From Thermoplasmata archaeon (GTDB taxonomy: Archaea > Thermoplasmatota > Thermoplasmata > Thermoplasmatales > Thermoplasmataceae), in contig JAJYUI010000002.1 of assembly GCA_021792595.1 (NCBI GenBank), positions 1-39,208 on the forward strand: a DNA stretch of 39,208 bases. Reading direction: 5' to 3'. A program made the position numbers and the translations under genes. The notes under the pieces are model-generated. The model saw only the letters and a list, made by a program, of their open reading frames with translations, was not told the DNA's origin and did not search any database. The number at the start of each line of letters is the position of its first letter. Within the stretch, counting starts at the first letter, position 1. Positions 22,281 through 29,307 of this stretch are shown here, piece after piece.

Positions 22281-23183
22281 GTGAGAGTTATAATTCTTCC
22301 CCAACGCAGCTCTATTCAGGGCAGATCTGCAGCAGTTATCTTTTATCGTGAATGGCAATCGGGGAGTGGGATCGTATTGCCAGGAGAAAGCGGAAATAGG
22401 GTAATCATTTCGTCGGAGAGAGACGAGGTGAGCCTGGCGCTTGGCAGGAGGCTCCTGCAACTATACAATTTCAGCCAAATTCAAGGTTCTCTGGGGACAA
22501 ACTTCATCTACAAGAATTTTGTACTTATTTTTATAAAAGAAATTCACTTAAATTTTTCGAATATAAATTCTATAGACAGTCTTTTTCCAGATTTACACGA
22601 CGTGGTGGTACTATCCCGCCACTCTTCAGGGGCTAACGTGAAGTCCATGACGGTGCATCCTACCGGTAATCCAGGGGAAGCAATGCTGGGCGGATTATCG
22701 GGGAAACTATCGATGTCAGATCCGCAAATGATGTGCTCCACACTACGTCTGCTAAAGTCAGAAGCTCCAGGTTTCGGCTATGAGGTCACCCTTGAGGCAA
22801 CGCATCACGGTCCACTCAGCCACCTGCCTATGCACTATGCTGAGATAGGGGTGGTCGACGACAAGTGGAAGAGCGATGAGATTCTTGACACACTCCTTAA
22901 ATCTGTAGTAGGCGCCGCCCCGTCGAGAGGAAAAAATTATGTTGGGGTTGGCGGAGGGCACTATATGCCCAAGGTAACGTCACATGTTCTTTCCGGGGAA
23001 GAAAACGTTGGCCACATGCTTACAAAGAGGGTCGTTCCTTCCATTGAAATTCTGGCACAATCCGTGGAAAAAACTCCTGAATGCAAAGGATTCATCGTCG
23101 ACAGGAAAGGGACAAACGGTGAAACGAGGAGAATAATCAGGGAAATTTGTGAAGTACGGAACCTCGAACTGGTCATTATATGA
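22281..23183 (+). CDS. dtdA: D-aminoacyl-tRNA deacylase, archaeal DtdA (GEK1-like) family
   Basis: VVLSRHSSGANVKSMTVHPTGNPGEAMLGG, EVTLEATHHGPLSHLPMHYAEIG, VGVGGGHYMPKVT. GTG start. Confidence 0.93.
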   Translation: MRVIILPQRSSIQGRSAAVIFYREWQSGSGIVLPGESGNRVIISSERDEVSLALGRRLLQLYNFSQIQGSLGTNFIYKNFVLIFIKEIHLNFSNINSIDSLFPDLHDVVVLSRHSSGANVKSMTVHPTGNPGEAMLGGLSGKLSMSDPQMMCSTLRLLKSEAPGFGYEVTLEATHHGPLSHLPMHYAEIGVVDDKWKSDEILDTLLKSVVGAAPSRGKNYVGVGGGHYMPKVTSHVLSGEENVGHMLTKRVVPSIEILAQSVEKTPECKGFIVDRKGTNGETRRIIREICEVRNLELVII

Positions 23184-23347
23184 TATAATAAAAGTATAAT
23201 ATTACATATATGAAATTATATATATAGTTCGCTTGTTATCTCACCTGAGATAGGAAATTCCAGTATCCGTAAACAATCTGTATTAAGTTCAGCTAAGACA
23301 AATTTAAATATAATAAACAACTACTTTGCCTGTATTAACTGAGGTTA

Positions 23348-24313
23348 ATGGAGATGGAAGAGGTTTCCGCTCAAGAGGAAGAACCACCCGGCGGTACCCC
23401 CCTGATTAGGGCAAGTAACATGGAGAAACGCCTCAGGCTGAGGAAATTTTTTGTTAAGTTTGAGGGAGCAAATCCAACCGGCACACAGAAGGACAGGATT
23501 TCCCTGTCTCACGTAAGAAGGGCTGCCCTGGGAGGCTATGACGTTCTTTCCCTGGGAACGTGTGGCAACTACGGTGCCTCCGTGGCTTACTACTCAAGGA
23601 TCTATGGAAAGCGCACTGTCGTTGGAATACCCAGTGCTTACACCGCATGCAGGCGGTCAGAGATTGAATCATATGGTGCAAGCATACTTGGCCTTGAAGG
23701 AACCTATGAGGAGGCCCTGGGGACAATGGGAGACCTAGCGAGGGACAATAACTGGTATGACTGTAACCCGGGCTCTGTGAACTCAGATGTGGACCTGAGT
23801 GGGTACCAGACCATTGCTGATGAAATTATCAGCCAGCTTGGTCACGCACCGGAAATAGTTTCAGTTCCAGTAGGGAACGGAACGACACTTGCAGGCATTT
23901 TCGAGGGGTTCAGGAAAGCATACCAGTCAGGCACGACGGACCGTATTCCAAGTATTATTGGCGCCAGCACGAGTGGCGGCAATCCAATCGTTGAATCTTG
24001 GAAGAAGGGATACAGGACGATAAGAAATCTCCGGGCAGATCAGATCAGGGAAACTGGCACGAATGAACCCCTGATATCATACAGGCCTACTAACGGACAG
24101 GAGGCACTCACAGCTATTTATCAGTCAAGGGGGTATGCGGAATACGTGACCGATGAAGAAATGCTGTATTACTCAAGATTCGTTGAGCAGGCAGAAGGAA
24201 TTTCAGCTCTTCCGGCTTCTTCTTCCGCCATAGCTTCCGCCGTGAAAGTTCTCGGAAGAATAGGAAACGACAGGGAATGTGTTATCGTGCTCACCGGTCG
24301 TGGCAGGACATGA
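23348..24313 (+). CDS. PLP-dependent (fold type II) threonine-synthase-like enzyme
   Basis: FEGANPTGTQKDRISLSHVRRAALGG (Schiff-base Lys context), LGTCGNYGASVAYYSRIYG, VSVPVGNGTTLAGIFEGF. Start may be the second ATG at 23354. Confidence 0.88.
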   Translation: MEMEEVSAQEEEPPGGTPLIRASNMEKRLRLRKFFVKFEGANPTGTQKDRISLSHVRRAALGGYDVLSLGTCGNYGASVAYYSRIYGKRTVVGIPSAYTACRRSEIESYGASILGLEGTYEEALGTMGDLARDNNWYDCNPGSVNSDVDLSGYQTIADEIISQLGHAPEIVSVPVGNGTTLAGIFEGFRKAYQSGTTDRIPSIIGASTSGGNPIVESWKKGYRTIRNLRADQIRETGTNEPLISYRPTNGQEALTAIYQSRGYAEYVTDEEMLYYSRFVEQAEGISALPASSSAIASAVKVLGRIGNDRECVIVLTGRGRT

Positions 24314-25335
24314 AGAACGCAGTCATCATTGCCGAGGGAGTGCTGGGCACCACCTACGGAAAGACGGCCAACGGCCTGCTCAGGTACAGCAAGAGGTTCA
24401 ACATTGTCGGAGTAGTCGACTCCAGGCAAGAAGGAAAGGATGCCGGGGAGGTCGTCAATGGAAAGCCTTCGGGGATACCGGTTGTATCAGATCCGGTCGA
24501 CCTTTTCAACGCAGGTGCGGAAGGCATAATCATAGGGGTTGCCAGCGACGGAGGGACCCTTCCTGGGAATTACCGGAAGTTTGTATCGGATGCCCTGGAG
24601 AGGGGAATGTTTGTCGTCAGCGGTCTCCACGAATTCATCAGCGACGATCCGGAATTTTCAGGGATTGCCAAACGTACCGGCTCAGAAATCACTGACGTGA
24701 GAAAGATATTCAGGGACATGAGGCATAACTTCACCGGCGACATCCTGAACGTGGAATCAAAAAAGATTGCAGTGCTCGGCACAGACAGCGCAGTTGGAAA
24801 AAGGACCACTGCAGTGAAATTGATGGAACACCTTCAGGGCAGGGGAAGCAGCGCCCTGATGATAGGAACGGGCCAGACTGCATGGATCCAGGGTTTCCGG
24901 CACACCATTGTCCTGGATGCAATCGTGAATGATTTCGTCCCTGGTGCCTTGGAAAAAGTCACAGTTGACGCATGGAATGAAGAGAGACCTGACATAATGA
25001 TGCTTGAGGGCCAGGGCTCAGTCATGCATCCTGCTTATCCCGGAAGCTTCGAGATCATAGCAGCATGCAGGCCCGAAGCAATAATACTGCAGCACTCTCC
25101 AGCCAGGGAATTCTATGACGGCTTCCCCGGATTCAGGATCCCACCGGTTGAAACATACATCCGGATACTCGAAACGCTTTCGGGCAAGAAGGTGATAGCT
25201 ATTTCCATTAACAGGGAAGGGATGAAGGACTCTGAACTCCGCGAAACCATTGAAGCATACAGGGACAGGTACTCAATACCAGTTTTTGATCCTCTCGGGG
25301 ATCTCCGGGAAATAGGGGATATAGTGTCAGGCTGA
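24310..25335 (+). CDS. DUF1611 family P-loop protein (DgcN-like)
   Basis: N-terminal Rossmann-like domain (GIIIGVASDGGTLPGNYRK), then KIAVLGTDSAVGKRTTAVKLMEHL P-loop and GTGQTAWIQGFRHTIVLDAIVNDFVPGALE. ATG at 24310 forms an ATGA overlap with the preceding stop. Confidence 0.82.
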   Translation: MKNAVIIAEGVLGTTYGKTANGLLRYSKRFNIVGVVDSRQEGKDAGEVVNGKPSGIPVVSDPVDLFNAGAEGIIIGVASDGGTLPGNYRKFVSDALERGMFVVSGLHEFISDDPEFSGIAKRTGSEITDVRKIFRDMRHNFTGDILNVESKKIAVLGTDSAVGKRTTAVKLMEHLQGRGSSALMIGTGQTAWIQGFRHTIVLDAIVNDFVPGALEKVTVDAWNEERPDIMMLEGQGSVMHPAYPGSFEIIAACRPEAIILQHSPAREFYDGFPGFRIPPVETYIRILETLSGKKVIAISINREGMKDSELRETIEAYRDRYSIPVFDPLGDLREIGDIVSG

Positions 25336-25340
25336 TCTCG

Positions 25341-26762
25341 ATGGGATATGCCGAGAGAGTTCGATGTTTCAATTCCATAGAGGTGATTCCGGACAGGCCT
25401 GGAAGAAACACTGTTTCGGGCACGATAATAGTTACCATGGGTGCAATCACAGAGAAATTCCATCTGGTATTCTCATACAACCGCGATGTAACAATTGACA
25501 GCAGAACAGCGGGCCTCATTCTCACAATGCCGGTGATAAACTATGCTTACTTTGCCGGGGAGATCAGGCTGAACTTCAGGCTTCGCAAAAGGGACGTTGA
25601 TCTCGTGAGGGAATTTGTCAGGACAAACAACACGGAAGTATTCGTTAACAAGATATGCAGGAGGAGATATGAATTCATCAAGAGAGATTTCATTCCCGGA
25701 GAAGGTGAAATTACCAGGGAAAATGCCGAAGGCTCCACGATGATCATTGCAGATGATGTCGTGGACGACACCCCCAGCGAAACTGTGGAATACTCGACCT
25801 GCAGAATTGCGGTTCTATCTTCCGGCGGAAAGGAGAGCCTGCTCTCCTACGGTATCCTGAAGGAACTTGGAAAGGAAGTGTTTCCTGTTTTCTTCAACGA
25901 ATCCGGGGGGCACTGGAGAACTGCGAAGACCTCGTACGACATGATTTCAAGGGAAAACCCGGAAACACTGAAGATCTGGTCCAACGTGGACAGGTTCTAC
26001 ACCTTCATGAGGGACAGGATAACCGCTCTAGACCAGGCCATGGTCCGGAAGAGGGCAGACACCTACCCAATCAGGCTGTTCATTTTTCCAGTTTATGTGA
26101 TGGCCGCATTGCCGTACCTGGTATCTAACGGGATATCAGGTCTGGTCATGGGGAATGAGTTTGACGATCCTGGTGAGATGAAGCCCTTTCATGGCATCAT
26201 CCACCACTATGGAGTGTACGACCAGTCACGGGACTTTTCTGAAAGAATTTCAGGATATTTCAGGGAATCCGGCCATAAAATCGATCTGTACTCCCTTCTA
26301 TACCCAATCTCCGGGTATGTTGTGGAGAATATACTGGGCCACAGGTATCCGGACTTATTCTCCACCCAGAGATCCTGCCATTCATGCCATTTCACCGAGG
26401 AGGAGATCGCCCCCTGCGGGAAATGCACAAAATGTGCAGGAATACTCCTGTTCTGTGCAGCATCCAGCCTTGATTACGGATTGATAGGGTACAGGGATGT
26501 CACCTGCAACGACATAATCAGGATGGCTGATTCAGGACGAATGCGTCTTGATCCGGACGAACTGGAACACATGATCTCCAGGGTGCGTGGAATCGACAGT
26601 AAACTGCACGAACATGTGGAGGGAGTTCATATGCTGCCGGGAGAGCCTGTTCCCTTCAGCCTTGTGCCTGAAGAACTGAGACCAGGTCTCATGGGCATTG
26701 TTGGAAAGTATTCCAGTGGAATATATTCGTTGGCCAGTGAAAACTGGGTGAGGAGAAACTAG
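25341..26762 (+). CDS. PP-loop ATP pyrophosphatase-like protein resembling MurL (UDP-MurNAc-L-Ala-L-Glu epimerase family)
   Basis: AVLSSGGKESLLSYGILKELG (PP-loop SGGK[DE]S), late cysteine cluster RSCHSCHFTEEEIAPCGKCTKCAGILLFCAA as in MurL-like and other PP-loop proteins; overall layout resembles MurL from memory. Confidence 0.65.
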   Translation: MGYAERVRCFNSIEVIPDRPGRNTVSGTIIVTMGAITEKFHLVFSYNRDVTIDSRTAGLILTMPVINYAYFAGEIRLNFRLRKRDVDLVREFVRTNNTEVFVNKICRRRYEFIKRDFIPGEGEITRENAEGSTMIIADDVVDDTPSETVEYSTCRIAVLSSGGKESLLSYGILKELGKEVFPVFFNESGGHWRTAKTSYDMISRENPETLKIWSNVDRFYTFMRDRITALDQAMVRKRADTYPIRLFIFPVYVMAALPYLVSNGISGLVMGNEFDDPGEMKPFHGIIHHYGVYDQSRDFSERISGYFRESGHKIDLYSLLYPISGYVVENILGHRYPDLFSTQRSCHSCHFTEEEIAPCGKCTKCAGILLFCAASSLDYGLIGYRDVTCNDIIRMADSGRMRLDPDELEHMISRVRGIDSKLHEHVEGVHMLPGEPVPFSLVPEELRPGLMGIVGKYSSGIYSLASENWVRRN

Positions 26763-27295
26763 AAATATTCCGCTATGGCCGTCTCAACCTCTTCCTGTGT
26801 TTCACAGGATGAGTAGGAATTCAGGGGCTCCCTGTTCACATCTATGAACGTCTGCGCCCAGGAAAACTTGGACAGCACCCGTTCTGCCTGATCGTGGTTC
26901 CCCAGAATGAAAAGAGCAGAAGCCAGTGCCTCCACGGATGAAAGAAGCCCTGGTCTTCCATAGTTGACAGGGTTTACGGGCAGGATAGTTGGCAACCTCA
27001 CAGAATACTTTGTTAGGTGCTTCTCGAAATTCCTTTCGCCTTTCCATGAAGTCTCAATGACCATTATCCCGGTCCTCAGGCACTGATCCCGGTCGCTCCT
27101 GAGCAGGTACCTCCTTGACTCAGGATTGAGGTTCACGGTTTTCCTCAGTGCTGAGACCGGGACTTCCTCAGCCATGCCCATGCGTTTCAGCTTCCTCATC
27201 GTCGATCTCTTCGGGTCGTCAAGCCTGAAGTCATGATACTTTACTGCCACATCCATTGAGGTTTTCAACCAACATGGTATCCCGTATATAATCAC
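26759..27295 (-). CDS. tsr3: Tsr3/DUF367 rRNA aminocarboxypropyltransferase
   Basis: DFRLDDPKRSTMRKLKRMG, VIETSW, RLPTILPVNPVNYGRPGLLSSVEALASALFILGNHDQAERVLSKFSWAQTFIDVNREPLNSY matches Tsr3. True start probably the internal ATG at 27256. Confidence 0.92.
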   Translation of the reverse strand: MIIYGIPCWLKTSMDVAVKYHDFRLDDPKRSTMRKLKRMGMAEEVPVSALRKTVNLNPESRRYLLRSDRDQCLRTGIMVIETSWKGERNFEKHLTKYSVRLPTILPVNPVNYGRPGLLSSVEALASALFILGNHDQAERVLSKFSWAQTFIDVNREPLNSYSSCETQEEVETAIAEYF

Positions 27296-27567: not shown

Positions 27568-29307
27568 TTGAAGGTAGAATCCGTGATCGAGTCACATTGG
27601 AAGAAGATTGTCTTTTCCCTGATCGCATCTGCGATTATCATCCTGAGCGTGTTTGCATTCTTCCCCTCGTCTCAGACACAACCTTCTGCAGTCACTCCGT
27701 CAATTCCGCTCAGTAACGTTACTGTTAACGTGAGCGTTGAACCCCTGGTACACTGGCCTACAGTATCCTCCTCGGCGCAGACCAACTCTACGAACTATTC
27801 GGGGGCACTGATTCAGCTCTTTCCTGTATATCACCCATTTACCAATGGGCCAAGTTACCTGAATTATTCGAATATAACAGCAATGGCAACCGGCTGGCTC
27901 AACCATACGTATAGCGGCAAATTCAAACTACCGCTCGCGATGTACCCCCTGGTTAAGCAGTGGAGGGCATACTTCGGGCACGCAACAGTGGGTGAGACCT
28001 CATTTATTGTCATAATCACTTACTTCTACACACACAACTCAACATCCAAGATAGCATATTCAGTCACCACAACAGCCCCTTACCGCCCATTTGGAATCAG
28101 CCTGAAGACTGGAGGGCTCATCAACGTCTCGGATCATCCAGTTCTCAACAGTAACTTTCATGCCATGGTTCCGGACAAAGATCTTAACTATCCGTCAACC
28201 CCAATTTACTCGAACTACTCCGAGCTTGCAAACAATACTTCAATCCTGATCCCCACGAAGAACTCTGCTACCGGTGGATATTCCCCAATGGGCATTGGAG
28301 GTGGCGGTGATTACTGGGTCTGGAGAGTAAGTTACTACAAACAATTCACACATTCACAGATACCAATCTCATTCCTCAATGAGACGAAGTCGGGTCTCTC
28401 GTCCATGGTAACCGATTCCATCACCATGGGATCGACACAGTTTTCGACAGAATTCAGCATGGCCCAGACAACGTTCAGCAGTTCAGAGAGATCCTACTCT
28501 GTTGGGACATCTCCGGTCTGGATCTCCGGGTTCTACGTGGGGGGTTCCGGTGTTACTACCTTTCCAAACAACTACAACAAGACCTATAGGGACGGGGTTG
28601 TAACCGTGCTGGGAAATGCCACTGTGGTTCAGTACCAATGGACCGAGGTCAATTCATGGAACCAGGTCATGAAGAAGGCAGACTATTACAAGGCAAACGT
28701 ATTCATATCATCACTGGACGAGGCCTATGACCAGTTCCATCTTAACGAAACCCATGCAGGATTTGTCAACCTCGCCAAATACACCAATACTACCTTCAAG
28801 GACCTGCCACTCCAGGAGAGATACCAGGTCGCATTTGGCATATATTTCAACGGAACTGATTCTTCCGCACTGTTTGGCAACGCCAACACGATTTCCGACA
28901 ACACCACTCTTCAGGTCAACAGCCAGGAATCCTGGTACGATATCTACTCGAGCATCAGAGCTACAACGAGCAATCTATGGGGAGAAATCGACGCATATTT
29001 GGGATTGGCAGCAGCGGTTATAGGCGTTGCTCTTGTTTTCGCTGCCATACCATTTGGAGCTTCGGTTGCAGCTCCAGCAGCGATGGCTGCATTCCTGGGT
29101 CTGGGTACTGCCATAGCGGGCTTCCTGTTAAGCGGCGTCATCTCGGTGAGCAGCACCACCTTCATGTATAGTGGATACATACAGAATACAGGTAATGAAA
29201 TTTCCCCCGGCGGTTCCGTTGTGATCAGTAACTGGTACACCATGGACAACATAGAGGTTAACGGAGGAACCTACCAGTTCCCGTCCAATTATGCCATAGT
29301 CACATAA
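27568..29307 (+). CDS. Secreted/cell-surface protein with N-terminal TM and a C-terminal Ala/Gly-rich hydrophobic region
   Basis: N-terminal KIVFSLIASAIIILSVFAFFP, NxS/T-rich ectodomain, C-terminal LGLAAAVIGVALVFAAIPFGASVAAPAAMAAFLGLGTAIAGFLLSGVISV. Start codon uncertain (TTG 27568 or GTG 27583). Confidence 0.78.
   Translation: MKVESVIESHWKKIVFSLIASAIIILSVFAFFPSSQTQPSAVTPSIPLSNVTVNVSVEPLVHWPTVSSSAQTNSTNYSGALIQLFPVYHPFTNGPSYLNYSNITAMATGWLNHTYSGKFKLPLAMYPLVKQWRAYFGHATVGETSFIVIITYFYTHNSTSKIAYSVTTTAPYRPFGISLKTGGLINVSDHPVLNSNFHAMVPDKDLNYPSTPIYSNYSELANNTSILIPTKNSATGGYSPMGIGGGGDYWVWRVSYYKQFTHSQIPISFLNETKSGLSSMVTDSITMGSTQFSTEFSMAQTTFSSSERSYSVGTSPVWISGFYVGGSGVTTFPNNYNKTYRDGVVTVLGNATVVQYQWTEVNSWNQVMKKADYYKANVFISSLDEAYDQFHLNETHAGFVNLAKYTNTTFKDLPLQERYQVAFGIYFNGTDSSALFGNANTISDNTTLQVNSQESWYDIYSSIRATTSNLWGEIDAYLGLAAAVIGVALVFAAIPFGASVAAPAAMAAFLGLGTAIAGFLLSGVISVSSTTFMYSGYIQNTGNEISPGGSVVISNWYTMDNIEVNGGTYQFPSNYAIVT

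Follow-up and report, generated by a model that had tools for sequence, protein, structure and literature searches.

What might a PLP enzyme, a DUF1611 protein and a relative of the cell-wall enzyme MurL be doing together in an archaeon? The window, a stretch of 39,208 nucleotides from a Thermoplasmata archaeon, features genes for these three proteins side by side, at positions 23348 to 26762. To our knowledge, the bacterial-type cell wall is the only place where an ATP-driven flipping enzyme of the MurL kind is known to act, and most archaea carrying the operon are devoid of such a wall. The three genes appear to form an undescribed pathway, in which an amino acid would be tagged and its handedness inverted at the cost of ATP.

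Re-reading of the open reading frames agrees with an earlier note on this DNA, which had described three tightly packed genes of one strand with an ATGA overlap and a 5-nt gap. The first gene (PALP, 23348-24313, +) encodes a PLP fold-type II enzyme of an operon-specific subfamily, as judged from the reading frame, Pfam and NCBIfam matches and fold. The second, the DUF1611 gene (24310-25335, +), overlaps it by the ATGA at 24310-24313 and is followed, after 5 nt (25336-25340), by the gene of the MurL-like PP-loop protein (25341-26762, +), recognised from its motifs, fold model and homologues. The true PALP start is more likely at 23354 than at 23348, since homologues begin at MEE, and the start common to DUF1611 homologues is 24310, whereas the mechanical ORF opens at 24277. 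The three reading frames are not a product of chance, since full-length homologues in the same order exist in three archaeal phyla. The AT-rich leader also claimed for the operon is evident at 23184-23347 (GC content 0.256, against 0.507 across the operon), and the TATA-like box TTTAAATA within it (23303-23310, +), about 40 nt ahead of the first start codon, probably represents the operon promoter. Upstream of this leader lies a gene for the D-aminoacyl-tRNA deacylase DTD2 (22281-23183, +; Pfam/NCBIfam), which is found directly 5' of the operon in many Thermoplasmatales loci. DTD2 is a thematic yet lineage-limited neighbour, separated from the operon by the leader, and it was set aside as a part of the module because its adjacency is limited to Thermoplasmatales. 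On the other side, a Tsr3-type rRNA aminocarboxypropyltransferase gene (26759-27295, -), a common neighbour in Thermoplasmatales, is convergent with the operon.

The three genes form a true conserved module, as almost every readable locus of Thermoplasmatota, Thermococcales and Thermoproteota has the order PALP, DUF1611, MurL-like. The MurL-like gene has homologues in 57 of 293 Thermoplasmatota genomes, in about 25 of 101 from the phylum of the Thermococcales (with some broken copies), and in 10 of 200 Thermoproteota, together with two weak matches there to an intermediate family described below. Within the 293 Thermoplasmatota, the MurL-like gene (56 genomes, leaving out a distant member in genome G044), DUF1611 (80 genomes) and the operon-type PALP (53 genomes, called by a score gap at 237 bits or more, plus a truncated copy in G091 adjoining DUF1611) are distributed in a strongly nested way. 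All 53 genomes with the operon-type PALP also have the MurL-like gene, and 55 of the 56 with the MurL-like gene have DUF1611, the sole exception being an 83%-complete genome. The co-occurrence in related genomes on which the earlier note had staked its proposal is thus observed in Thermoplasmatota; the corresponding Fisher values are tiny, and overstate independence because the genomes are related. In the family of the source genome, the MurL-like gene is present in 29 of 29 sampled genomes among those listed. Departures from the common arrangement are a DUF1611-MurL-like pair without adjoining PALP in Aciduliprofundum-like genomes, and genome G113, in which PALP is present at another genomic place. 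The MurL-like gene is broken or fragmentary in the Thermococcales genomes G339, G342, G327 and G359, which suggests that it is being lost in this order at present.

The PP-loop protein contains an intact SGGKES loop (residues 161-166), which, like cysteines 346, 359, 362 and 365 (a Zn-type pattern C-x12-C-xx-C-xx-C), is invariant among 21 relatives. Of 47 aligned rows, 45 show the PP-loop motif, most with Glu for the loop Asp, and 46 have the cysteine site. Its structure model (pLDDT 90.8, pTM 0.91), a QueC/QatC-type core with an extra N-terminal domain, retrieved QatC (E 9e-6), Cap9 and QueC with Foldseek (E range 9e-6 to 6e-4). Among solved structures QatC comes closest, with a match along almost the entire length, and a viral fold library yielded mostly QueC-type phage proteins. 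In QatC, four cysteines bind Zn and the SGGxDS loop binds ATP (PMC13279940), and the Zn motif of QueC is C(x)8CxxCxxC (PMC13329287). The PDB searches retrieved no MurL structure, so that the ranking of folds, which covered QueC, QatC and Cap9, is unable to separate MurL from QueC.

The relationship to MurL was assessed with the NCBIfam MurL model (NF041275, cut-off 700 bits) and through an intermediate family. The window protein itself passes no Pfam or NCBIfam family cut-off: it does not match NF041275, and reaches 10.6 bits with PF06508 (QueC), for which the gathering score is 22 bits. The best of its A1 relatives with PF06508 (E 0.01) is also under the cut-off. Among 30 homologues, 16 match the MurL model weakly (about 16-18 bits against the cut-off of 700; best E 3.4e-4) and none matches a QueC model of NCBIfam, and the matched stretches are collinear, with residues 257-367 of the homologue lying on 227-338 of MurL. 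A second, separate archaeal family (L078, L079, L173 and L174), nearer MurL than the operon family is, matches NF041275 in all four members (best E 1.4e-9), and its alignment with the operon family (E 3.9e-25) begins at the PP-loop. On these grounds the protein is firmly a QueC-like scaffold with distant MurL kinship, the scaffold being indicated by the fold matches and by the QueC/QatC-type Zn cysteines and ATP loop, and the kinship by the 16 matches against none, the intermediate family and the collinear positions. Judged by sequence, MurL is the best relative of the family, a kinship supported through relatives and the intermediate family. The earlier designation "MurL-like" thus holds for the family, in which MurL and no QueC model of NCBIfam is matched, and fails for the window protein taken alone against the MurL model. 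ATP use with release of AMP, as in MurL, is to be expected from the PP-loop, and from the model we infer that the protein activates a carboxylate. Besides the low scores, the operon family differs from MurL in its PALP and DUF1611 partners and in its surroundings, as no Mur ligase (MurD2 or other) was recognised among the scanned operon neighbours in the window and in relatives. Searches with tblastn, using the PP-loop protein against plasmids and the intermediate L079 against plasmids and phages, returned nothing relevant, and a scan of genome contigs gave matches in archaea only.

The assignment of the second gene to DUF1611, made in the earlier note, is confirmed by two Pfam domains, both above cut-off (PF07755, 203 bits; PF17396, 91 bits). 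The protein, with a Rossmann-like N domain and a P-loop C domain, is a homologue of DgcN and has 2g0t, 7xrj and 2obn as solved relatives; it scores 158 bits with the DgcN model NF041892, far under the cut-off of 480. Elsewhere, DUF1611 genes often have an epimerase or racemase gene as neighbour. All eight plasmid-borne bacterial or haloarchaeal loci that were opened adjoin DgcA, a dipeptide epimerase or an alanine/ornithine racemase: DgcN-DgcA pairs in Pantoea, Sphingobium, Klebsiella and Vibrio, a dipeptide epimerase in Bradyrhizobium, a D-aminoacylase and a dipeptide epimerase in Natrinema, and an alanine/ornithine racemase in Aliiroseovarius and Ruegeria. A D-Glu N-acetyltransferase and an N-acetyl-D-Glu racemase have been named (PMC11747546). 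In Thermoplasmatota genomes negative for the MurL-like gene, an enolase-superfamily dipeptide epimerase is adjacent to or near 8 of 20 DUF1611 loci and an alanine-racemase-like gene is adjacent to 2, the remaining 10 showing no recognised epimerase or racemase nearby. Genome-wide, a dipeptide epimerase is present in 18 of 25 genomes that have DUF1611 and lack the MurL-like gene, against 3 of 213 DUF1611-negative ones. DUF1611 rows partnered with the MurL-like gene fall into a single clade of the tree (support 100/99), beside the group that holds the racemase-partnered ones. The MurL-like protein thus occupies the slot where other DUF1611 loci keep an epimerase or racemase. The replacement is not clean, given the 10 loci without epimerase and the 14 of 55 genomes in which the MurL-like gene coexists with a dipeptide epimerase; in the source genome (85% complete), no dipeptide epimerase was seen. 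The epimerisation envisaged in the earlier note gains independent support from these unrelated enzymes beside other DUF1611 genes.

The best reading of these data, which we hold tentatively, is that the operon is an amino-acid N-acylation and epimerisation module resembling DgcN-DgcA, in which the epimerase has been replaced by an ATP-driven MurL-type enzyme and to which a PLP enzyme has been added. The DUF1611 protein would N-acylate an amino acid, as DgcN, a D-Glu N-acetyltransferase, does. The MurL-like protein would then act on this N-acylated amino acid or on a short peptide, spending ATP on adenylation of its free alpha-carboxylate. The adenylation would acidify the alpha-hydrogen and allow the stereocentre to invert, and hydrolysis of the adenylate would make epimerisation one-way. 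The PLP enzyme may form or use up the free amino acid. The chemistry of each step, the acidic (Glu-like) nature of the substrate and the direction are what we infer. The module shares with DgcN-DgcA (EC 2.3.1.312 and 5.1.1.25) a DUF1611 acyltransferase gene adjoining an epimerase gene. Where that pathway has DgcA of the enolase superfamily, the module has a MurL-like, presumably ATP-using protein; it also differs in the modest 158 bits to the DgcN model and in the extra PLP enzyme, for which the DgcN-DgcA pathway has no counterpart.

Such a module would most likely serve to scavenge D-amino acids or the cell-wall peptides of bacteria. In one Thermoplasmatota family and in one Thermoproteota genome, genes for a GNAT acetyltransferase, an L-Ala-D/L-Glu-epimerase-like protein and an M14-like peptidase converge with the operon, and in Thermococcales a GNAT gene lies immediately 3' of the MurL-like gene. 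The recycling of murein peptides in E. coli involves an M14 peptidase, MpaA, and an epimerase, YcjG; by analogy, the neighbours suggest that operon hosts may scavenge cell-wall peptides. The earlier remark that these genes are unexpected in a wall-less archaeon applies to the making of peptidoglycan and loses its force for scavenging, which requires no wall of one's own. That murein-less archaea combine an ATP-driven, one-way epimerase of MurL type with a DUF1611 N-acyltransferase and a dedicated PLP enzyme in an undescribed stereo-inversion pathway is a conjecture offered with reserve; in the open literature, to which the search was confined, no paper on this operon was found. If true, MurL-type chemistry would play a second part in biology, one beyond the synthesis of peptidoglycan: a MurL relative in the epimerase slot of wall-less archaea would show this chemistry to be more widespread, and the operon would offer three testable proteins from thermophiles.

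A QueC-like fold is in itself no proof of epimerisation, as QueC-like scaffolds also carry out amidation, nitrile formation and protein conjugation. The PP-loop protein could be a QueC/QatC-like enzyme that moves the adenylated carboxylate to ammonia or an amine, the ammonia possibly stemming from the PLP enzyme, to yield an amidated or conjugated amino-acid derivative. QatC, Cap9 and QueC are indeed the best solved folds, a QueC-type cysteine site is kept in all but one of the 47 rows, and ammonia-lyases are found among PALP relatives. Yet 16 of the 30 homologues match the MurL model and none a QueC model of NCBIfam, and DUF1611 genes stand beside epimerases or racemases in other genomes, so we regard this alternative as rather unlikely. 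The operon protein has the PP-loop core and the Zn-type cysteine site in common with the QueC/QatC/Cap9 family (PF06508), and departs from it by its score under the family cut-off and by SGGKES in place of SGGxDS. By eye, neither of the QueC motifs YxQxHxxE and VPxRN was seen in the protein, and no deazaguanine genes were noticed near the operon.

The direction of the reaction is the point of a second alternative, to which we likewise give a low probability. Known MurL works one-way, from L to D (PMC8788868, PMC5808125), which for the acylation and epimerisation module would mean making, not degrading, a D-residue. Instead of scavenging D-amino acids, the operon might supply a cell component, osmolyte or small molecule with a noncanonical amino acid, either a D-form or a modified one. 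A PALP of synthase-like fold-type II with an operon-specific active-site signature is in line with this proposal, as is the core-pathway-like presence of the gene throughout the listed genomes of the source family. The patchy occurrence and broken copies in Thermococcales, however, fit an accessory trait, and the dipeptide epimerase and M14-like peptidase neighbours in two phyla point to peptide breakdown.

Despite the scores of the protein, an ordinary threonine synthase as the identity of PALP, with the operon as a loose set of biosynthetic genes, is quite improbable. PALP was correctly described as a PLP fold-type II enzyme in the earlier note (PF00291, 194 bits); it exceeds the cut-off of the "threonine synthase" model NF004996 (420 against 266 bits), and its AlphaFold model (pLDDT 91) has threonine synthases as nearest solved folds. 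Fold and overall sequence are thus shared with threonine synthases (NF004996, NF005035, TIGR00260), whereas the active site differs. The phosphate-loop Arg at position 160 of the Thermus enzyme, which we take to be the phosphate-binding residue for O-phosphohomoserine, is replaced by Asp, Ser, Gly or Gln in all 15 aligned operonic PALPs. The STGNT loop reads TCGNYG, and all share an EPL motif without variation. The short archaeal type of ThrC (NF005035) likewise has no Arg in that exact column, but one occurs a residue further on. The source genome contains a separate ThrC (C44, L146; 434 bits with NF005035, against a cut-off of 301), and PALP tracks the MurL-like gene in every Thermoplasmatota genome that has it. 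The missing phosphate-binding Arg and the second ThrC make the name "threonine synthase" doubtful for PALP, and the reading proposed here would set right this automatic name, which is carried by a gene family widespread in archaea. Finally, that the MurL-like protein is a true peptidoglycan-type MurL retained for wall synthesis is scarcely credible in spite of the weak matches to the MurL model, as members occur in archaea not making murein, Mur ligases were unrecognised among the scanned neighbours and scores are far under the 700-bit cut-off.

Some further genes were recorded beside the operon and its relatives. Within the window, a 579-aa ORF without accepted family match (27568-29307, +) has an N-terminus resembling a signal peptide or membrane anchor. 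A heliorhodopsin gene adjoins a second MurL-like copy at L065 (G255:C38, 2249-3199), where the contig ends beside that copy. At L074 (G027:C122, 181-3046), the partner is unlike those of the operon, namely a 474-aa ORF that carries a NUDIX domain at its C-terminus and overlaps with a MurL-like copy.
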